A DNA stretch of 64,000 nucleotides from the NCBI RefSeq assembly GCF_014203355.1, contig NZ_JACHIR010000001.1, positions 8,062,038 through 8,126,037 on the forward strand. Direction: 5' to 3'. Below the pieces are notes generated by a model, which was not told where the DNA came from, did no database searches, and worked only from the letters and a program-made list of their open reading frames with translations. Origin of the DNA: Kutzneria kofuensis. Lineage in GTDB: Bacteria; Actinomycetota; Actinomycetes; Mycobacteriales; Pseudonocardiaceae. Shown one piece after another: positions 5,920-28,002 of this stretch; position 1 is the first letter of the stretch, and each line of letters begins with the position of its first letter. The translations under genes and the position numbers were made by a program.

Positions 5920-7125
5920 TCAGGAGACGAGTGCTTGCCAGGTGTCCGGTCCGACGACGCCGTCGGCCGTGAGTTGGCTGCTGGTCTGGAACGCGACGAC
6001 TGCCGCACGCGTGGCGTCGGTGAACTGGCCGTCGACGGTCACGGCGGCGCCGTGCGCGACGAGCTCGGTCTGGGCGGCCCGCACGGCCGGGCCGGAGTCG
6101 CCGGACTGCACGGTGACGACCAGCGCCTGCCAGGTGTTGGGGCCGACGATGCCGTCGGCGGTGAGCCCGTGCGCGGACTGGAACGCCTTCACCGCCGCGA
6201 GCGTCGCCGGACCGAAGTCGCCGTCCGCGGTCAGCGTCGCGCCGCGGGCGTCGAGCAGGTCCTGCACCGTCGTCACCCGGGTGCCGCTGTCGCCCTGCTG
6301 GACGATCGGCCAGGCGCGGACCGGCGGGGGAGTGTAGTCACCGAGGGCGAAGGTGCGCAGGTCGTCACGGGTGCCGTTGAACGTGTTCTGGTCGCCGGGG
6401 AACGGGCCGGAGTCGGCGTACTGCCAGATCGTGTCGCTGGCCCAGCCGGCCGGCAGCGGCAGCGGGGTGCCCGAGTAGTTGGCGATCCACAGCGGGTTGG
6501 TGGCGCCGAAGCCGGCGTAGTCGCCGGTGCACTTGTGCCACCAGTCGGTGGTGGAGTAGATCACCGGCGCCCGGCCGGCGCGGGCCCGGTAGCGGCTGCT
6601 GAAGGCGGAGATCCAGGAGACCATCGCGCCGGCGCTGAGGCCGTAGCAGGTGTCGCCGTGCGGGTTGTACTCGATGTCCAGCGCACCGGGCAGCGTCTTG
6701 CCGTCGGCACGCCAGCCGCCACCGTGGTCCACGAAGTAGTCCGCCTGTGTGGCGCCGCTGGACGCGTCGGGATGGGCGAAGTGGTAGGCGCCGCGGATCA
6801 GGCCGGCGCCGGCGGCGCCGTTGTACTGCTGGCCGAAGTAGCTGCTGACGTAGTTGGTGCTCTCGGTCGCCTTGACGTAGGCGAAGGACGCGCCGGCGGC
6901 GGCGACCGATGCCCAGTCGACCGCGCCCTGGTAACCGCTGACGTCCAGGCCGCGCACCGAGCCGATCGCGGCCGGCGTCACCGGCTGCGCCGTGCGGGCG
7001 GCCAGGCCGGAGCCGGCGTGATCGAGGTCCGGTCCGCTCGCCGCGGCGGCGGGGATTGCCGCCGTTACGGTGAACATGAGCGCGACCGTCAGACCCACGG
7101 CCACCGTTTGCCCTGTTCTCGCCAC
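5920..7125 (-). CDS. Secreted GH25 lysozyme with tandem peptidoglycan-binding domains
   Basis: 401 residues. Start set at GTG 7125: AAAGGA lies 9 nt upstream, a signal peptide (VGLTVALMFTVTAAIPAAAA) begins directly, and the longer alternative at ATG 7212 would lie inside the operator at 7181-7226. The GH25 (muramidase) domain spans residues ~50-255: RGLDVSGYQGAVDW carries the first catalytic Asp and GALDIEYNPHG the Asp-x-Glu pair. The remaining ~135 residues contain two PGB_1 repeats like those of the 1188 and 3562 proteins. GH25 enzymes hydrolyse the beta-1,4 MurNAc-GlcNAc bond. First gene of the operon running to 2821; 54 untranslated nt separate it from the operator. Confidence 0.93.
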   Translation of the reverse strand: MARTGQTVAVGLTVALMFTVTAAIPAAAASGPDLDHAGSGLAARTAQPVTPAAIGSVRGLDVSGYQGAVDWASVAAAGASFAYVKATESTNYVSSYFGQQYNGAAGAGLIRGAYHFAHPDASSGATQADYFVDHGGGWRADGKTLPGALDIEYNPHGDTCYGLSAGAMVSWISAFSSRYRARAGRAPVIYSTTDWWHKCTGDYAGFGATNPLWIANYSGTPLPLPAGWASDTIWQYADSGPFPGDQNTFNGTRDDLRTFALGDYTPPPVRAWPIVQQGDSGTRVTTVQDLLDARGATLTADGDFGPATLAAVKAFQSAHGLTADGIVGPNTWQALVVTVQSGDSGPAVRAAQTELVAHGAAVTVDGQFTDATRAAVVAFQTSSQLTADGVVGPDTWQALVS

Positions 7126-13439: not shown

Positions 13440-13713
13440 CCCGGATCCCGCGCGAACGGGCAGGCCGGATGGCTGGAGTCGAAGGACCAACACCGGCCTG
13501 CCCACCGAGTTTCCCGTTGTCACCCGGGCAGATCGCACAGGGGAGAGGATCCTCTCGTCCAGTTCCCGTCAACGGCGCGTTTGCGTCGCGTCCGCCGCTT
13601 GCGTCCGTCCCGCTCGTCATCCAACGCTTGCTTCTGAACCGTTCCGCGGTACGCGCTGATGCGGCGTGCGCGAGTCGGTTGGCAGAGCACGTCGGGGGTG
13701 GGGGAGGAAGTCC

Positions 13714-16653
13714 ATGGGAGCTGCCGTAGGGCAGCCGACGTCCGAGATGGCCAGGGGACACCGTGGGGGGTGTTTCGTCGGACGACGCCGGGAGTTGGGT
13801 CGGCTACGGCGGTTGCTGCAGTGGCCGGAAGGAGAGCAGGTCGCGCGGTTCGTCCAGGTGGTCGGCGAGCCGGGGATCGGGAAGACCCGGTTGTTGCAGG
13901 AGTTCGCCGGAGCGGCGGGGCGGGCGGGCGTCCCGGTGTTGTGGGGGCGCGCGGACGAGTTCGAGCGAGAACTCCCGTTCGGCGTGTTCATCGACGCCGT
14001 CGCCGACCACCTGCCCGAGGCAGCGGTGGAACGGATCACGCAACTGGGCGAGGATGCCTGGGGCCTACTGCGCACGGTCTTTCCGCTGGGCCGGGGACCA
14101 GGACCGAAACAGCCTGCGGTGGAACTGCTGGATATCGAGCGTTATCGCCTGCACCGTGCTGTACGAGCGCTGTGGGAGACCGTGGCTGCGCCGGAGGGCC
14201 TCGTCCTGGTGTTGGACGATCTGCACTGGGCCGATGCCGGCTCGATCGAGCTGCTGGACCATCTGATCCGCCACCCACCCCGCGCCCGAGTGGTGGTGGC
14301 AACGGCCTTCCGCCCGCGGCAGGCGCCCGCACGGTTGAGCGCGATCCTGTCGCAAGCTGAGTTGATTGAGGTTGGGCCACTCGCCGCAGCGGAGATCGAG
14401 CAGTTCCTCGGCCCTGGCGCCGCGGCCGGCCGCCGGCGAGAGTTGTACGACGTCGGCTGCGGTAACCCGCTCTACCTGCAGGCACTGGCCCGTGACGGCA
14501 GATGGACGCACGACGCCGACCGTGTGTGTCCGGCAGGTGACGCTTCCGACCTGCTTCGCGCGTCGCTGTCGGATGACTTCGCTGCCCTGGGATCCGCCGA
14601 ACTCGGGGTCGCGCAGGCGGCGGCGATCGCCGGCGAGGAGTTCGACGCGGATCTGGTGGCGGCGGTCGCCGACTGCGACCGGAACGAGGTCCTTGCCGTG
14701 ATCGACCGACTGGTCGACCGTGATCTTCTCCGCCCGGCGGGTGTGCCTGGTCATTTCCGCTACCGGCATCCGCTGGTGCGCACCATGGCCTACCAGACCG
14801 CCGGGGCAGGGTGGCGAGTGGCCGCACACGCCCGTGCGGCAGCCGCGCTGCGGCAGCGCGGGGCGCCGGCCACCGCACGGGCGCACCACGTGGAACGTTC
14901 CGCTGCCTACGGCGACCCGGCTGCCATCGATGTCCTGTTGGACGCTGCCGTCACGACCATGCACACCACCCCGGCCACGGCGGCACATTGGCTGGAGGTG
15001 ACGCTCCGCCTGCTTCCCGACGACGCGACAGCGCAGCCCATGCGGCTCAGTCTGCTGGGCATGCGCGCACGAGCCCTCGGCGTCACCGGACGCTTGGCCG
15101 ACAGCCGGGAGTTGCTGCACGAGGCGTTGCGACTGCTGCCGGCTGAATCGGCCGAAGAACGCGCCCGGGTCGCGGGCTTCTGCGCCGTGATCGATCGCCT
15201 GCTCGGCCATCACGCCGAGGCCCGGGCCCTTCTCCTGCACGAACTGGACGGCCTCGCTGATCCGGACAGTGTTGCCGCGGCGCTGCTCAAGCTGGAACTC
15301 GCCGCCGGTCGACTCACCCGCGGGGACTTCACGACACACCACCCGTGGGCGTACGAGGCCCTCGCGATAGCACGCCACCACTCGGATCGGGCACTGCTGG
15401 CCACCGCGATGGGAATGTGCGTGCTGAACGGTTTGCTCGACGGCACGGTCGACTCCCAGACCTTCGCCTCACTTGACGAGACCAGTGCGGTGGTCGACGC
15501 GCTGCCGGACGGCGACCTGTCCCGGCACCTGGAGGCCACCGTCTGGCTCGGGTGGAGCGAGATGTTCCTCGAGCGCCCGGCCGAGGCATTGCGACACCTC
15601 GACCGGGGCCTGCGGCTGGCTCGCACGACCGGCCAGAACCACCTGATGACCTACCTGCGTATGGGGCAGGGCACCACTTATGGGCTGCTGGGCCGTCTCC
15701 AGGAGGCGGCCGACTGTTTCGCGGACGCGCTGGAAGTGTCGCGGCTGACCGGCAGTGACGAGCTGCGCGCCATGGCGCTGGCCAACCTGTGTTGGATCAC
15801 CACGTGGCAGGGAGATCACGCGCGGGCGTTACGGCTGGGTGAGCAAGCCGTTGCCGCGGCCGGAGAAGACAAGGACTGGTATGCGGCTGTGGCGCACGGC
15901 CTGCTCGCCCAGGCTCGTCTGCATGCCGATGATCCCGGCACGTGCATCGAGATCCTGGTCCGGGCGGGTGGTGGCCCCGGGCTGCCCAATCTCGACCCCT
16001 TGTCCCGGGCCGGCTGGTACGAGCTGCTGGCCGCCGCCGACGCGCGTCTCCACCACGCCGAGCGAGCCGGCGACTGGGCACACCGCGCGGAAACACTGGC
16101 CGCCACGCTTGGACTGCACATGCGCACCGGATTCGCGCGGCTTGCCCGAGCTCACGCGCTGCGGTCGGCCGACCCGGCCCACGCCGCCCGACACGCCGTG
16201 GCCGCCGCGGAGTCCTTCGCCGAGGCAGGCGATCGCGTGGATGCGGGGAGAGCACACCTGCTGGCCGGTGTGCTGCTCGACCGCTGTGGCCACAGCGGGC
16301 CGGCCGGTAGGGAGCTGGCCAGCGCGCATGCGCTGTTCACCGCGTGCGGAGCGCGTGGGTTCCAGGCCAGGGCGGTGCGCGCGCAACGACGTGTCAACGC
16401 GCGGGGGCCGCGGCACTCCAGCCGCTCCGGACGGATCGGGAGCCTGACCCGTCGCGAGCTGGAGATCGCCCGTCTTGTCGGGACCGGCATGACCAACCGC
16501 CAGATAGCCGCCCAGCTGTGCGTGAGCAGCAAGACCGTCGAGGTGCACGTTTCCCGCATCCTCGCCAAGCTTGCGGTCCCCGCTCGCGCCGCGGTGGCGA
16601 ACGCCCTGGCGGGGGCCGAAAACGGCGGTGACGGCGGATCCACCGGACGGTGA
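13714..16653 (+). CDS. LuxR-family LAL transcriptional regulator (AAA ATPase - TPR - HTH)
   Basis: 979 residues from ATG 13714, chosen because GGGAGGAAG lies 6 nt upstream; a GTG at 13666 would be longer but has no ribosome site. Residues ~20-250 form the ATPase module: GEPGIGKTRLL (Walker A) and LVLVLDDLHWAD (Walker B). The middle is helical and TPR-like. The C-terminal ~65 residues are a LuxR helix-turn-helix (LTRRELEIARLVGTGMTNR, CVSSKTVEVHVSRILAKL). Large ATP-binding LuxR regulators commonly sit in natural-product clusters as activators. Its position just upstream of the peptide/E1 genes at 17188-19644 makes it a candidate regulator of that locus. The 274-bp gap before it shows no gene. 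Confidence 0.92.
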   Translation: MGAAVGQPTSEMARGHRGGCFVGRRRELGRLRRLLQWPEGEQVARFVQVVGEPGIGKTRLLQEFAGAAGRAGVPVLWGRADEFERELPFGVFIDAVADHLPEAAVERITQLGEDAWGLLRTVFPLGRGPGPKQPAVELLDIERYRLHRAVRALWETVAAPEGLVLVLDDLHWADAGSIELLDHLIRHPPRARVVVATAFRPRQAPARLSAILSQAELIEVGPLAAAEIEQFLGPGAAAGRRRELYDVGCGNPLYLQALARDGRWTHDADRVCPAGDASDLLRASLSDDFAALGSAELGVAQAAAIAGEEFDADLVAAVADCDRNEVLAVIDRLVDRDLLRPAGVPGHFRYRHPLVRTMAYQTAGAGWRVAAHARAAAALRQRGAPATARAHHVERSAAYGDPAAIDVLLDAAVTTMHTTPATAAHWLEVTLRLLPDDATAQPMRLSLLGMRARALGVTGRLADSRELLHEALRLLPAESAEERARVAGFCAVIDRLLGHHAEARALLLHELDGLADPDSVAAALLKLELAAGRLTRGDFTTHHPWAYEALAIARHHSDRALLATAMGMCVLNGLLDGTVDSQTFASLDETSAVVDALPDGDLSRHLEATVWLGWSEMFLERPAEALRHLDRGLRLARTTGQNHLMTYLRMGQGTTYGLLGRLQEAADCFADALEVSRLTGSDELRAMALANLCWITTWQGDHARALRLGEQAVAAAGEDKDWYAAVAHGLLAQARLHADDPGTCIEILVRAGGGPGLPNLDPLSRAGWYELLAAADARLHHAERAGDWAHRAETLAATLGLHMRTGFARLARAHALRSADPAHAARHAVAAAESFAEAGDRVDAGRAHLLAGVLLDRCGHSGPAGRELASAHALFTACGARGFQARAVRAQRRVNARGPRHSSRSGRIGSLTRRELEIARLVGTGMTNRQIAAQLCVSSKTVEVHVSRILAKLAVPARAAVANALAGAENGGDGGSTGR

Positions 16654-16915: not shown

Positions 16916-17187
16916 GTCGGTCTCCTCCTCGAAGGCTGATCGGATGCCAGTCAATCCGGCGTTACTCGGTGGAGCATCGGGGAATTCCCCATGTCTGGCG
17001 GATCATGCGCCACCGACGACCGCGCAAGGCCGGTGACACAACTGAGACAGCCACGGTGACCGGGGAGCGCCAGGCGTGAGAAGTAGTGGATTTCCCTGAT
17101 GCTGTGGTCGGTGGCGGCCGGAGACGATGGCCGCTCACCTTGTGCGCCCGCCTGCGCGCACGAGGTCCACTGAGGAGGTGAGGAAAC

Positions 17188-17262
17188 ATGACCATCGAGA
17201 TCAGACGGGTCGAGGACATCAAGGTTACATCGATCCACGTCATCGACACCTGCGGCGCGTGA
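17188..17262 (+). CDS. Putative 24-residue RiPP precursor peptide
   Basis: ATG with one of the best ribosome sites in the window (AGGAGGTGAGG, ending 5 nt upstream). The 24-residue product starts MTIEIRRVED and ends VIDTCGA; it has a charged first half and a Val/Ile/Thr-rich second half, with a single Cys third from the end. It is too short for most gene finders. It is followed by a perfect hairpin and an E1-like (ThiF/MccB) enzyme gene in the same direction. MccB-type E1 enzymes adenylate C-terminal carboxylates of short peptides such as the MccA heptapeptide. The size, site strength, hairpin and neighbour together suggest the peptide is the enzyme's substrate. No homologue is recognised, so this is an inference from context. 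Confidence 0.65.
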   Translation: MTIEIRRVEDIKVTSIHVIDTCGA

Positions 17263-17272
17263 CGCCGAGGCG

Positions 17273-17302
17273 GTGGCCCTGCCATGGCGATGGCAGGGCC
17301 AC
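17273..17302 (+). promoter_or_regulatory. Perfect 13-bp hairpin between peptide gene and E1 gene (attenuator)
   Basis: GTGGCCCTGCCAT (17273-17285) pairs perfectly with ATGGCAGGGCCAC (17290-17302) around a GGCG loop. It starts 10 nt after the peptide stop codon and ends 25 nt before the E1 start. RiPP precursor genes are often followed by such partial terminators or mRNA-stabilising stems so that peptide is made in excess over enzyme. Confidence 0.7.
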
Positions 17303-17327
17303 ACATGCGCAGAGAGAAGGATTCTTG

Positions 17328-18446
17328 TTGATACCGCGTCTGAAGTCCTTGACCTGCCTGGTCGGCGTCGGACGGCTGATCGTCACCATCGACCCGCGCA
17401 GGCGGATCGAACTCACCGATCCCGACGGCCACGTGTTGTTCCTGCTGCGCCTGCTGGCCGAGGGGACGAGAGACCTCCCCGAGTTGGTGGCAACGATGCG
17501 TGGTCGTCGACCGCGTGTCAGACAGTCCGATGTGGAGAGTGCGCTGAGCGCGCTCGACGAACTCGGCTGGCTGGACAATGCGCGGGCCCCGAGGATGCTC
17601 AGCGACGAGCAGCGCGAACGCTACTTCAGCAACCTGGCCTTCTTCGACGTGTTCACCTCCCAGCGCCGCGGGCGTGAGGAAGTGCAGCGCCAACTGGTCG
17701 ACGCGCATGTGCTTGTCCTCGGCGTCGGCGGCCTCGGGTCGAGCGCCGTCCAGCATCTGGTGGGCCTCGGGGTAGGCCGCCTCACGTTGGTCGACTTCGA
17801 CACTGTCGAACAGCGCAACTTCGCACGTCAGTACACCTACACCCCGGCGCAGCTCGGCCAGTCCAAAGTGGAGCAGGTCGCCGCCTGGGTTCGCGCGTTC
17901 GACCCGGCAGTCCGGGTGACCGCGCTCCACCGGCAGGTCACCGGCGGGGGCATGGTCGCCGAACTGCTGGACGACGTCGATTTCGTGGTCTCGGCGATCG
18001 ACCAGCCGGCAGGAGTGGATCTCCAGGTGAATCGGGCCTGCGTGTCGGCCGGGGTGCCGTTCGTTCGGGGCGGACTGGCCTACGCGCAGGGGCTGTACTG
18101 GTCGGTCGACCCGGGCCGCAGCGCATGCCGGCATTGCCTTGAAACGCACCGGGAAGCGCAACGTCGCCAGGACACCAGCGGAGAGCTGTCCTGGCCGCGG
18201 GCACTCGAACAAGATCAGGTCAATCGCGCCATCGGACCGGTCGCGGGCATGCTCGGCGCGCTCGTGTCGATGGAGGCCCTGCGCTACCTCACTGGCGTGA
18301 TCGCCCCGGTTGCCGCCGGCACCTACCATCTGATCGATTTCACGGGCGACTGTCGGATCACGACCGAACCGTGGCCGCGGGACGACAAGTGCCCGGTGTG
18401 TGCTCTCGCGCCGGTGTCACGCTCGGCAGCGAGGCGCGCGTTGTGA
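17328..18446 (+). CDS. ThiF/MccB-like E1 adenylating enzyme with N-terminal peptide-recognition-like domain
   Basis: 372 residues from a TTG at 17328 (GAAGGA 6-7 nt upstream; TTG 17325 also possible). Residues 1-95 form a small mixed domain ending in a winged-helix-like part (DVESALSALDELGWLDNA), like the leader-binding regions of RiPP E1/cyclodehydratase proteins. The E1 core has VLGVGGLGSSAVQHLVGLG (nucleotide loop), DFDTVEQRNFARQYTY with the conserved Asp and Arg, and FVVSAID. Two CxxC pairs (CRHC near 266, CPVC near 354) form the zinc site. E1 enzymes activate carboxylates as acyl-adenylates. Its partner is probably the upstream peptide. The product could be a nucleotide-peptide conjugate, a thiocarboxylate or a ring; the sequence does not decide. 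Confidence 0.88.
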   Translation: MIPRLKSLTCLVGVGRLIVTIDPRRRIELTDPDGHVLFLLRLLAEGTRDLPELVATMRGRRPRVRQSDVESALSALDELGWLDNARAPRMLSDEQRERYFSNLAFFDVFTSQRRGREEVQRQLVDAHVLVLGVGGLGSSAVQHLVGLGVGRLTLVDFDTVEQRNFARQYTYTPAQLGQSKVEQVAAWVRAFDPAVRVTALHRQVTGGGMVAELLDDVDFVVSAIDQPAGVDLQVNRACVSAGVPFVRGGLAYAQGLYWSVDPGRSACRHCLETHREAQRRQDTSGELSWPRALEQDQVNRAIGPVAGMLGALVSMEALRYLTGVIAPVAAGTYHLIDFTGDCRITTEPWPRDDKCPVCALAPVSRSAARRAL

Positions 18447-19096
18447 CCGCGGACGGTCTGCCCAGGCGCCGTCGATACTGGCCACTGCTCGTCGGCACGT
18501 TCTTCGACGGCACGGTGTTGCTGGGCGCGCTGCTGGGCCGACTCGGCGGGCAGCTCCGCTGGTGGGAACTGGAGCCCGGCGCCGACAGGTTCCTGGCGGC
18601 ACTGGCATTCCTCCAACTGTCGCTCATCGCCAGCCAGTGCTTCGTCTTTCTGCGGACGGACATCTACGCCGTGCTGCTCACCGCCGCCGGCTGCTTCGAC
18701 CTGTGGCGGGTCAACCAGTTGCTCCTCCGGCGCAGGCTGAGGCTCATCACGCCGGCGCAGCGGCAGGAGCTCGACGCCGCCCATCCCAGGGATCTGGCGG
18801 TGGCCCGTTGGTACTGCTGGGTCTACATGGCCGGGCTTGTGCTGGCTGGCTGGTTCTTCGTCTGCTTCTTCGCTCCGGCCACCGTGCGTCTGCTGTGCTG
18901 GATCGCGCAGACGGTGGCCGGCGCCGAGCTCGCGGATCCTTCGTTCTGGGAGGCATTGGTCTTCGGAGCGGTCGTCCTGTCTCCGCAGATGGCGACTCTG
19001 GCGATAGCGGTTCGAGACATCAGCCGTCGGCGGCGTACGCGGGCTGCCGCTGGGCCGATGGGGCGACGACGAGTCTGGCCGGCGGTGCCCAGATGA
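18443..19096 (+). CDS. Membrane protein resembling the C-terminal half of RiPP-associated M50 proteases
   Basis: 217 residues; the GTG start overlaps the E1 stop (GTGA). Four membrane segments are visible: YWPLLVGTFFDGTVLLGALL, FLAALAFLQLSLIASQCFVF, WYCWVYMAGLVLAGWFFVCF and EALVFGAVVLSPQMATLAIA. The stretch FVFLRTDIYAVLLTAAGC followed by an LW-rich arginine segment closely resembles the region after the catalytic half in M50-like proteins of actinomycete RiPP clusters (from memory). No HExxH motif is present, so the zinc-protease half is absent. It may act in export, immunity or as a scaffold for the modified peptide. The missing half is not encoded just upstream, where the E1 gene lies. Confidence 0.65.
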   Translation: MTADGLPRRRRYWPLLVGTFFDGTVLLGALLGRLGGQLRWWELEPGADRFLAALAFLQLSLIASQCFVFLRTDIYAVLLTAAGCFDLWRVNQLLLRRRLRLITPAQRQELDAAHPRDLAVARWYCWVYMAGLVLAGWFFVCFFAPATVRLLCWIAQTVAGAELADPSFWEALVFGAVVLSPQMATLAIAVRDISRRRRTRAAAGPMGRRRVWPAVPR

Positions 19097-19644
19097 GCGA
19101 AGCGTTCTACGCCGTCACGTATACTGTCGGGCCGCTGATCATGGCCCTCGTGACGATCGGCATCGGCACACTCGTCACACAGATCCGGCGCGTCCGCGAC
19201 CGTGGAACGAAGAAGCGAAGTGGTTCCGAGCGCGTTGATCGCTGCACCGAAACGAGCTTCTACCGGAAGGGTGCGGACCTGATGCCGTCCATGGACGATC
19301 TCCAGGCGGAGTCCGTTACGTTGCGGATGCCTGCCCGCATCTGGGCTGGTATCGACGCCGGGATGGACAATGTCGTGTCCCTTGCCACTGTTGACGGCGA
19401 TGCGCATGCCGTACGCGTCGGGCAGGCCATCCGTGAGGCGGGCTGGGCCCAGGTTCCCTGGGTGGACGGGCTGTGGCCGCCCATGGACCAGATCATCTCC
19501 ATCCGGTTGACACGAGCTCAGTGGCGGTTCGCGGCCGATGAGGCGCGTGAGAGCGCCATCGACTACGAATCACTCCGTGACGAGGCGTCGGCGCAGTTGT
19601 GCAGAGATGCTCTCGCGGTGATCGAAGCCGCCGACGTGCCGTAG
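19093..19644 (+). CDS. Membrane-anchored hypothetical protein of the peptide locus
   Basis: 183 residues; the ATG overlaps the upstream stop (ATGA), so it is translationally coupled to the membrane protein gene. One N-terminal membrane segment (YTVGPLIMALVTIGIGTLV) is followed by a basic stretch and a soluble domain of about 115 residues (VTLRMPARIWAGIDAGMDN, IISIRLTRAQWRFAADEARE). I do not recognise the soluble domain. A second ATG at 19281 could start the soluble domain alone (AAGGG 9 nt upstream), which would make this two genes. Coupling suggests a role in peptide export, maturation or self-protection. The operon ends here; the next gene is convergent. Confidence 0.65.
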   Translation: MSEAFYAVTYTVGPLIMALVTIGIGTLVTQIRRVRDRGTKKRSGSERVDRCTETSFYRKGADLMPSMDDLQAESVTLRMPARIWAGIDAGMDNVVSLATVDGDAHAVRVGQAIREAGWAQVPWVDGLWPPMDQIISIRLTRAQWRFAADEARESAIDYESLRDEASAQLCRDALAVIEAADVP

Positions 19645-19716: not shown

Positions 19717-20217
19717 CTACCGATACCACCGCTGCTGAGGACCGTTATTGCAGTTCCAGACCTGGACGACACCGGTGAGCGTGACGCCGTCCAGCGTTTG
19801 GGCGTCCAAGCACTTGTTCCAGTTCAGGCCGTTGTGGATCCTGTGGTCGGGCGTGAAGAACCACCGCTGCTGAGGACCTCCGTTGCAGTCCCAGACCTGG
19901 ACGGCGCCGGTGAGCGTACGGCCGTCCAGCGTCTGGGCGTCCAAGCACTTACTCCGGTTCAATCCGTTGAATTTGGTGCCGTCGCTGTTGTCGAACCAAT
20001 CCTGCTGAGGACCTCCGTTGCAGTCCCAGACCTGGACGGCGCCGGTGAGCGTGAGGCCGTCCGGCGTCTGGGCGTCCAGGCACTTGTTCCAGTTCAAGCC
20101 ATTGTGCAATTCCTGGCCCGAGGCGGCGGTCGCCGACGCGACATAGCCGTTCGCGGTGGTCAGCGCCACTGCCGTAGCCGCGGCGATGGTCAGTACGCAA
20201 GCTTTCTTTCCCGGCAT
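19717..20217 (-). CDS. Secreted ricin-type beta-trefoil lectin of three near-identical repeats
   Basis: 166 residues from ATG 20217 (GGGGAGGA 6 nt upstream; longer in-frame starts lack a site). Signal peptide residues 1-32 (VLTIAAATAVALTTANGYVA). The mature protein is almost nothing but three 45-residue beta-trefoil lobes, each with KCLDAQT, GAVQVWDCNGGPQQ or a close variant, and a final W (the QxW motif of ricin B lectins). A complete trefoil therefore forms with no catalytic partner. These domains bind galactose- or GlcNAc-containing glycans. It stands alone, convergent to the peptide locus. Confidence 0.88.
   Translation of the reverse strand: MPGKKACVLTIAAATAVALTTANGYVASATAASGQELHNGLNWNKCLDAQTPDGLTLTGAVQVWDCNGGPQQDWFDNSDGTKFNGLNRSKCLDAQTLDGRTLTGAVQVWDCNGGPQQRWFFTPDHRIHNGLNWNKCLDAQTLDGVTLTGVVQVWNCNNGPQQRWYR
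19726..20130. repeat. Three tandem 135-bp coding repeats in the lectin gene
   Basis: Units begin near 19726, 19861 and 19996, spaced exactly 135 bp (45 codons). The second and third share long identical runs such as CTGAGGACCTCCGTTGCAGT, and silent positions agree too. This indicates recent duplication or ongoing homogenisation within the gene. Confidence 0.8.
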
Positions 20218-20925
20218 CCGATCCTCCCCTTGCTCGGTGAAGTCATTGCGGCGAATTGCGTGGGCTCTTCGGAGGAGACGAGGCGGATGCCACCTGGGCG
20301 GCGGTACGCCGTGAGATTTGGCCGACACCGAGTGCGGTAGTGGATCCGCTGACCGCCACCAACGGCGCATCCTCGGCTGACGGAAGATGCTTCGGATTCA
20401 TTCTTGGCTTCCCTTGTGAATAACCGTTGGATTACCCTCGGGTGGCCGTCATGAGTCTCCTTCTTTGGTTTCGTGGCAACAACGACGGCAACGAAGAGCC
20501 GCATCGCTCTCGGTCGGACTATCGCCTACTGTGGCCCCGCTGCCGGTGGTCACGCTGCCCGAAACAAGTTAAGTTGGAAGAACCGCAAACCAGCTCTACT
20601 CGCGTCGCTCCAGTCCTGGCAAGACTGTGGCGTGGCATATGTTCACCCATGGCGCGGCATGGCCACGCAATTGTTTGTACCCGCAATCGAGGTCTTCTTG
20701 GCGGATAGCCGTGTTCGAAACGAGTGGGCATGAGTGCGCTTGGCTATGGTGCTGATCCGACGCCGGCCGAACTGGTCGAAGCCGGCCACGCCGCCGGCGA
20801 GCGGCCAGCCTGGCACCCTGCCGGCGGCGGCCTACTTCACCGTCGCGCCGTGCTGGACGACCGGCTCCCACCGAACGCCCGAGCACCATCGAGCGCTCCC
20901 GCGCCCTCGTTCCGTGCGCACGAGG
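20218..20925. other. Gene-poor, lower-GC stretch; only doubtful ORFs
   Basis: About 700 bp with visibly lower GC and no recognised gene. An 86-codon plus-strand frame (20473-20733, MATTTATKSRIALGRTIAYC start) and an overlapping 93-codon frame (20427-20708) both lack convincing ribosome sites and family signatures. The part next to 20217 must hold the lectin promoter. It may be a decayed gene. Confidence 0.5.
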
Positions 20926-27486: not shown

Positions 27487-27590
27487 GCCTCCCGGGCTTT
27501 TCTCCCGCCGTGGAACGGTCCCGTTTCCGGTGTGGACCGCCTGCGTCTCTCGGACCAGACCCGCGTCGCCGCGGCGGAACCCTAGACGCG
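27487..27590 (-). promoter_or_regulatory. Guanidine-I (ykkC) riboswitch aptamer
   Basis: On the minus strand the conserved blocks of the guanidine-I class occur in order: CTAGGGTTCCG at 27585-27575, GGTCTGGTCCGAGAG around 27565-27550, an ACGGGACCG segment near 27525, and CGGGAGAAAAGCCCGGGAG at 27507-27489. Recognition rests on memory of the consensus, but the match is extensive. It sits directly before a permease/DUF1989/allophanate hydrolase operon, the textbook setting. Confidence 0.9.
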
Positions 27591-28002
27591 CCCCGCGCCG
27601 CCGCGGGTCGTGAACAGTGCACCGGCGGGCCGTGTCGTCGCCGGGTCGGCCGTGTGAACCCCGCGTATCGGGACCGACCCGTGCGCGGCCAACGGCGTCA
27701 CATCGTGTTCACACATGGCGGTCTTCGTGTGTGCGCGCACGACGGCGTCCGGGACCCCGGCAGCACCGACAACCTCGCCGAGCACAGCGTGCTCGGCGCG
27801 ATCGCCGGTGACCGTGCGGCGTGGTCACGATGCCGCAACGGCAGAGCACCGGTGCGCTCAACGGCCACTTCACCGTCAGGTGCGGCGTTCGCCACGTTTC
27901 GCGCACTCGTAGGTGACGGACGACCTGATTTCCTTTCGGTGCGCGGCCGCGAATGCGGAAGTTTGCTCGGGCCGTAGGCGAAGAGTGCCCAAGGGAGCGA
28001 CA
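27591..28002. other. Divergent intergenic region between the guanidine and polyketide operons
   Basis: About 410 bp with no supported gene. It must carry the outward promoters for both the riboswitch transcript (minus) and the PKS operon (plus). GTGTGAAC (near 27652) and GTTCACAC (near 27709) form a loose inverted pair that could be a regulator site. I cannot mark -10/-35 boxes with confidence. Confidence 0.5.

Follow-up and report, generated by a model that had tools for sequence, protein, structure and literature searches.

A putative peptide, E1 enzyme and site-2 protease RiPP family in actinobacteria, with a truncated cassette in Kutzneria kofuensis

The locus

The window, as we call the whole stretch of DNA analysed here, comprises 64,000 nucleotides of the 10.4 Mb genome of Kutzneria kofuensis (contig NZ_JACHIR010000001.1, positions 8,062,038 to 8,126,037 of the forward strand). 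It carries a small cassette in which a very short peptide gene is followed by a hairpin, a gene for a ThiF-like E1 enzyme and a gene for part of an M50 membrane protease. A first-pass annotation had read the first two genes as the precursor of a ribosomally synthesized and post-translationally modified peptide (RiPP) and an MccB-type E1 with a leader-binding domain, and this proposal is well supported by the structural model and its matches described below. The 75-bp gene with its strong ribosome site, the perfect hairpin and the E1 assignment of that annotation were also confirmed. The features of the cassette are as follows.

17172 to 17183, plus strand: Shine-Dalgarno sequence GAGGAGGTGAGG of the peptide gene, seen in the sequence; a Shine-Dalgarno-like sequence is also found upstream of 31 peptides
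17188 to 17262, plus strand: putative precursor peptide gene, 75 bp, 24 residues (MTIEIRRVEDIKVTSIHVIDTCGA), from homologous peptides adjoining E1 homologues
17188 to 17229, plus strand: leader, residues 1-14, with E9 and T14 conserved, from the entropy per position and the ratio of non-synonymous to synonymous substitution rates (dN/dS)
17230 to 17259, plus strand: core SIHVIDTCGA, of the A3-subgroup type (His17, C-terminal Ala/Val), from the peptide list and the E1 tree
17273 to 17302, plus strand: perfect 13-bp hairpin in the gap between the peptide and E1 genes, -32.6 kcal/mol, z=-4.66 against dinucleotide shuffles
17325 to 18446, plus strand: predicted E1 with an N-terminal RiPP recognition element (RRE), a ThiF adenylyltransferase domain and four Zn Cys; TTG start at 17325 or 17328
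18443 to 19096, plus strand: truncated RRE-site-2 protease (M50), C-terminal ~210 residues only, without HExxH, from alignment to relatives

Relatives of the cassette and the peptide gene

Among 390 genomes of the family of the host, the search found E1 relatives of 42-45% identity and a wider set of about 30-37%. Short open reading frames (ORFs) with strong ribosome sites and similar starts adjoin nearly all members of the close set. A scan of public genomes with an alignment as the query gave 30 further loci; a single-E1 query gave no match. These loci are mainly from Nonomuraea, and also from Cellulomonas, Dactylosporangium, Hamadaea, Asanoa, Phycicoccus, Streptomyces and Kutzneria. The presence of homologous peptide ORFs beside related E1 genes had been put forward as a test of the precursor proposal, and such ORFs, of 18-28 residues, were found in 28 of the 29 intact cassettes; the remaining locus (L085) has an assembly gap upstream, at the expected peptide site. 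The gene order varies, with one subgroup arranged E1-peptide-M50, and the three genes remain together. One member of the family, L082, has two precursor peptides in tandem between E1 and M50. This pair and the E1-peptide-M50 subgroup show that the peptide moves with the cassette and not merely with the promoter region. Both tandem precursors (L082, ~6166-6390) contain Cys, their cores being AHTCNSCES and SYSYCSANTISCDS. Judged by these comparisons, the 75-bp ORF is a genuine peptide gene, far beyond chance.

Leader, core and selection

The 31 distinct peptides read approximately M[KT]I[ET][VI][RK][KR]VE-x-x-x-[ALVS]-T, followed by a variable tail (MKIEVRKVEAVKATGFAV is the peptide of a short-core relative). 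Because positions 1-9, E9 among them, belonged to the search pattern, conservation there comes partly from the selection of hits; T14 lies outside the pattern and is invariant (31/31). Entropy, 0 at T14, reaches 2.9 bits already at position 15. Across ten independent close locus pairs the leaders differ by 14 synonymous and a single non-synonymous change (p=3e-8 against the neutral expectation), and the cores by 4.5 and 3.5, respectively (Fisher p=0.03 for the leader-core difference). The leader codons thereby pass the second test that had been proposed, that of purifying selection. Pooled dN/dS, calculated from non-independent pairs with GC-biased codon use, is 0.27-0.52 for leaders within subgroups and ~0.9-2.5 for cores. 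The leader is under purifying selection and the core is hypervariable.

It is extremely improbable that the short ORF arose by chance or serves as an attenuation leader and is no E1 substrate. The hairpin that directly follows it would suit such a role, but it is the amino acid sequence that is conserved, by purifying selection, and one subgroup encodes the peptide 3' of the E1 gene and not 5'.

The peptides can be divided further by their tails. Subgroup A1 has four or five residues beyond T14, the peptides of subgroup A2 end in [DE][ST], and those of subgroup A3, to which the window peptide belongs, carry His17 and end in Ala or Val. The C-termini of the E1-peptide-M50 subgroup are [DE][ST]. 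In the E1 tree the window enzyme clusters with A3 (support 0.957), and its nearest relative is that of Cellulomonas fimi HM71 (58% identity, support 0.895), whose peptide is MTIEIMEVEEITATRIHLDPDAYVYGAA. The C-terminal residues found among the 31 peptides are A, S, V, T, G and H. The sites first suggested for the modification, the C-terminal Asp-Thr-Cys-Gly-Ala of the window peptide or an Asp/Glu side chain, are not conserved, so family-wide use of them is not supported.

A hairpin between peptide and enzyme genes

Stable hairpins of differing sequence are located within 62 bases 3' of the peptide stop codon in all 31 loci (mean z -3.5; below -1.5 in 28). In Escherichia coli the gap between mccA and mccB holds a transcription terminator in the corresponding place (PMC6495379). 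The hairpin at 17273-17302 is probably a partial terminator or attenuator, and it would lead to an excess of the peptide message over the enzyme message.

The E1 enzyme

ThiF is the sole family-level match of the E1 (PF00899, E=7e-48). Its AlphaFold2 model, built from 30 aligned sequences, has a mean predicted local distance difference test score (pLDDT) of 91.9. The best solved match of this model is MccB, over residues 2-361 (Z 32.6, root-mean-square deviation 3.5, 334 aligned), followed by MoeB and ThiF for the catalytic domain and by PaaA near full length (Z 27.5). Because MccB matches over the full length and PaaA nearly so, the N-terminal ~88 residues correspond to their leader-binding domain. 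That the E1 is an MccB-fold enzyme with an RRE domain of its own is a well-supported prediction of the model. Aligned to MccB, it retains the motifs GxGG, DxD and NxxRQ, K181, D226 and the four Cys. R168, K181, D226, C268, C271 and C356 are invariant in the 30 E1 sequences and C359 is nearly so. A thiamine or molybdopterin enzyme was considered and rejected, the scores lying far under the curated cut-offs.

By sequence, the catalytic domain is closest to MoeB and ThiF, and this agrees with the earlier suggestion of a sulfur chemistry, in which the E1 would form a C-terminal thiocarboxylate, as those enzymes do on carrier proteins. Such carrier proteins, however, end in Gly-Gly, an ending seen in none of the 31 peptides, two of which end in Gly. 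The segment around Cys184 of ThiF aligns with the E1 stretch QVNRAIGPV, which has an invariant N300 and no conserved Cys; apart from the four Zn ligands, the family shares no Cys. We regard the thiocarboxylate as very unlikely, since there is no Cys at the Cys184 position and no sulfurtransferase gene was seen nearby.

The site-2 protease and its truncation in the window

The stop codon of the E1 gene and the GTG start of the M50 gene share four bases (GTGA). The window protein had been described as a four-TM half-M50 protein. The match to the C-terminal half only is upheld, but the protein is the remnant of a complete partner and not a novel protein type: a complete fusion of RRE and site-2 protease, ~370-430 residues long and with HExxH, is encoded in every one of the 29 intact relatives. 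In the model of the C. fimi protein the N-terminal domain resembles the lasso RRE TbiB1 (Z 9.7) and PqqD (Z 8.0), and the membrane part RseP (Z 7.9) and an archaeal S2P (Z 7.3). These matches come from a second structural comparison; Foldseek gave none at E<=0.001. One member matches the NCBIfam model for the daptide intramembrane metalloprotease (NF041824, E=1.4e-9), well under its curated cut-off. No Pfam or NCBIfam match was obtained for the window half-M50 protein, the third protein downstream or the peptides.

The alignment of the window protein to the C. fimi protein begins only near residue 225 of the latter, and the first ~200 residues, RRE and HExxH included, are missing; no second M50 copy was found across the host genome. 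From the sequence, the protease is probably inactive and the leader-removal step broken in the host strain, which would leave the pathway incomplete or reliant on another protease.

The truncation raises the question of whether the window copy is a decaying pseudo-cluster, its peptide and E1 being functionless remnants. Another Kutzneria, sp. CA-103260 (L102/L045), has the E1 gene but not M50, and its peptide gene is apparently deleted up to the E1 start. In the window, on the other hand, the peptide, Shine-Dalgarno sequence and hairpin are intact, as is every catalytic residue of the E1, and the retained M50 half is in frame. This half evolves at a normal rate, therefore either the loss is recent or the half is still useful. 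Decay is a possible but rather unlikely explanation; it concerns the host strain only and is compatible with a functional family elsewhere.

Relation to known systems

It was initially stated that the cassette fits no class. RRE-fused ThiF-like enzymes paired with short peptides are, however, already a recognised kind of RiPP (PMC12250964, PMC12150305). A global survey has listed 27,400 RRE-ThiF candidates (PMC12150305), a coverage that may well extend to the present family. No description of the family was found in the literature, which is a weak negative, much subscription literature having been outside the search. The TMcin paper and a 2026 RRE paper hold no account of a ThiF/M50 system like that of the window, and no description of an E1 paired with an RRE-bearing membrane protease was found. 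By the sequence-level definition the cassette is an RRE-ThiF (TLAT) RiPP, in a variant form that we did not find described. An N-terminal RRE on the ThiF E1 is predicted by the model and by the full-length MccB and PaaA matches, which include residues 2-90; the adenylation residues (Arg, Lys, Mg-binding Asp, Zn Cys) are conserved; and a short precursor with a conserved leader and a variable core adjoins the enzyme gene.

Enterofaecin EnfA/EnfB, IndA/IndF and GrcA/GrcB likewise consist of a short leader-bearing peptide and a ThiF-like E1 with an N-terminal RRE in a small cluster. The leader motif (V/I)RKA of EnfA resembles the (V/I)RK(V) of the present family, and IndA/IndF also has a dedicated protease gene, of the M16 type there and of the site-2 type here. 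The Trp/Ile motif at the C-terminus of enterofaecin and IndA (WIVI or NWYFI) is absent from the peptides of the family, and none of the 31 ends in Cys, the residue that forms the thiolactone with Glu in GRC. The family also differs from these systems in being actinobacterial and in having no transporter seen. Outside the family, an actinobacterial peptide upstream of an E1 gene (L061, MSFTVNRVPTDKKISWGII) ends in SWGII, with an IndA-like Trp four from the end and a terminal Ile.

Microcin C (MccA/MccB) shares with the family the E1 fold over the full length, MccB being the closest solved one, and the order of peptide, hairpin and E1 genes, which is that of mccA, terminator and mccB. By analogy, the E1 could join a nucleotide to the C-terminus of the peptide through an N-P bond, giving a Trojan horse compound. 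MccB chemistry, however, uses a C-terminal Asn, which none of the 31 peptides has, and MccA has 7 residues, whereas the peptides of the family have 18-28, include a leader and are accompanied by a protease. There is no sign of nucleotide transfer, and no MccC-type exporter was recognised in the flanking genes read, which were not searched systematically. This possibility is therefore remote in our estimate. Pantocin A (PaaP/PaaA) also has an RRE-fused E1, and PaaA is among the closest solved structures, but the Glu-Glu-Asn core is not conserved in the peptides of the family.

The RRE-site-2 protease of daptides is likewise a membrane protease with an N-terminal RRE and is related for at least one member. 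The RRE and HExxH typical of it are found in the full-length protein of the relatives; the window protein covers only the part beyond both. Daptide precursors have an invariant C-terminal Thr, whereas only 4 of the 31 peptides end in Thr, and in the present family, unlike in daptides, the protease is paired with an E1.

Proposed pathway

In our view the window peptide and E1 belong, with a probability of roughly 75%, to a widespread actinobacterial RiPP family predicted from sequences and models to comprise a peptide, an E1 and an RRE-site-2 protease. RRE-ThiF enzymes adenylate a carboxylate that various nucleophiles then attack, giving an N-P bond in microcin C, a thiolactone in GRC, an imide or amide in enterofaecin and an indolylamide in IndA (PMC12250964, PMC12150305). 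In the present family the RRE of the E1 would hold residues ~1-13 of the peptide, the E1 would use ATP to adenylate the C-terminal carboxylate of the core, and an internal group would attack the activated carboxylate to close a ring. If that group were Thr14, the product would be a macrolactone, and the shortest members would form rings of 5-6 residues. The site-2 protease would cut off the leader in the membrane. Activation of the C-terminal carboxylate is the likeliest reaction, and a fairly probable one, since some cores lack Asp/Glu and the C-terminal carboxylate is the sole core carboxylate common to all members. Thr14 is the leading, though still tentative, candidate for the nucleophile, because no other core side chain is shared by all.

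Several points weigh against this interpretation. Thr14 may instead belong to the leader or serve in recognition by the protease; rings closed on it would span 5 to 15 residues; and the window core offers other possible nucleophiles, namely Ser15, Thr21 and Cys22. The structural matches of the membrane part (RseP, archaeal S2P) have only middling Z scores, and the pooled dN/dS rests on non-independent pairs with a GC-rich codon bias. The retained M50 half of the window, which evolves no faster than intact copies, may still have a role. The product and activity of the family, as predicted from sequences and models, are putative.

In another version of the chemistry, an Asp/Glu side chain or the C-terminal carboxylate, once activated by the E1, would react with a backbone amide or a different side chain, as in pantocin, GRC or enterofaecin, and Thr14 would only mark the leader-core border or a protease site. 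From a single activation step, known RRE-ThiF enzymes do form rings of widely differing kinds (PMC12250964, PMC12150305), many cores hold Asp/Glu, and the E1-peptide-M50 subgroup ends in [DE][ST]. Several cores (QFMT, GFAV, AAPPV, GLQV and INGTV) contain neither residue, however, so a side-chain carboxylate cannot serve the whole family. We hold this version possible but not probable.

Distant E1 relatives

Further from the family, a group of E1 relatives (L021, L022, L024, L027, L028, L030, L031, L034, L035 and L053-L055) has upstream short peptides with C-terminal [FY]C-x(3-6), e.g., MIEIVMVERAEAIHHVYCHDNN, endings that could suit a thiolactone ring. The Cys (Ser in one) of the distant group lies about 5-8 residues from the end; this would agree with a comparably placed nucleophile for ring closure, though only as a hint. 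Another E1 subgroup (L046-L051) has peptides such as MTITVRIRKTSIASGAVEG with Glu-Gly ends; judged by eye, a ~590-residue M3-oligopeptidase-like protein is encoded upstream and an MFS-like transporter nearby.

Neighbouring genes

The cassette is flanked by the following genes.

13666 to 16653, plus strand: LAL-type regulator with an AAA_16 ATPase, TPRs and a LuxR/GerE DNA-binding domain, from Pfam; exact start uncertain
19282 to 19644, plus strand: 120-residue gene, probably unrelated, ATG start at 19282; stand-alone homologues elsewhere

Three coupled genes had been described, the last encoding a membrane-anchored protein. The E1-M50 overlap bears out the coupling of the first two, but the membership of the third is not confirmed. 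The last 120 residues of its product (from ATG 19282; residues 63-183) match stand-alone proteins of five other genomes (68-73% identity), three homologues (L063, L064 and L067) have an in-frame stop directly ahead of the corresponding start, and no ThiF homologue was found in the four neighbourhoods searched. The ORF start at 19093 (19093-19644) adds ~63 residues absent in the relatives. By these comparisons the third gene is probably an unrelated neighbour with an over-extended start, and it may begin at 19282.

The LAL regulator upstream, noted from the beginning, was verified by Pfam (AAA_16 E=7e-26; GerE E=1e-15) and is linked to the cassette by position only. In 19 of the 29 relatives the gene directly upstream, mostly divergent, encodes a large BTAD/NB-ARC/TPR regulator of the SARP type, with the domains checked for L099. 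The A3 members are among those without it, the window having the LAL regulator instead. No other constant flanking genes were apparent in the loci read, whose flanks were not searched domain by domain.

Elsewhere in the window, positions 19717-20370 (minus strand) encode a secreted-looking protein with three ricin-type lectin-like repeats (NKCLDAQTxDG...VWDCNGGPQQ). A guanidine-I riboswitch (Rfam RF00442, 78.3 bits) is located at 27487-27596 (minus strand), and minus-strand ORFs downstream of it resemble, by eye, urea carboxylase and allophanate hydrolase genes.

Significance

The odd half-M50 protein of the window can now be reinterpreted as a truncation. Almost every RRE-ThiF family studied to date has turned out to form a different bond, and the present family is promising for another new one because of its sharp leader, its invariant Thr and its very short variable cores; some thirty natural core variants ease the testing of the chemistry. 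More speculatively, and with little probability in our own estimate, the products may be small cyclic depsipeptides closed by the E1 from Thr14 to the C-terminus and trimmed by the site-2 protease, ribosomal counterparts of autoinducing peptides that signal to the neighbouring ATPase/TPR regulators. If this were true, the adjoining regulators, of the SARP type in 19 of the 29 relatives and of the LAL type in the window, would be receiving depsipeptide signals.

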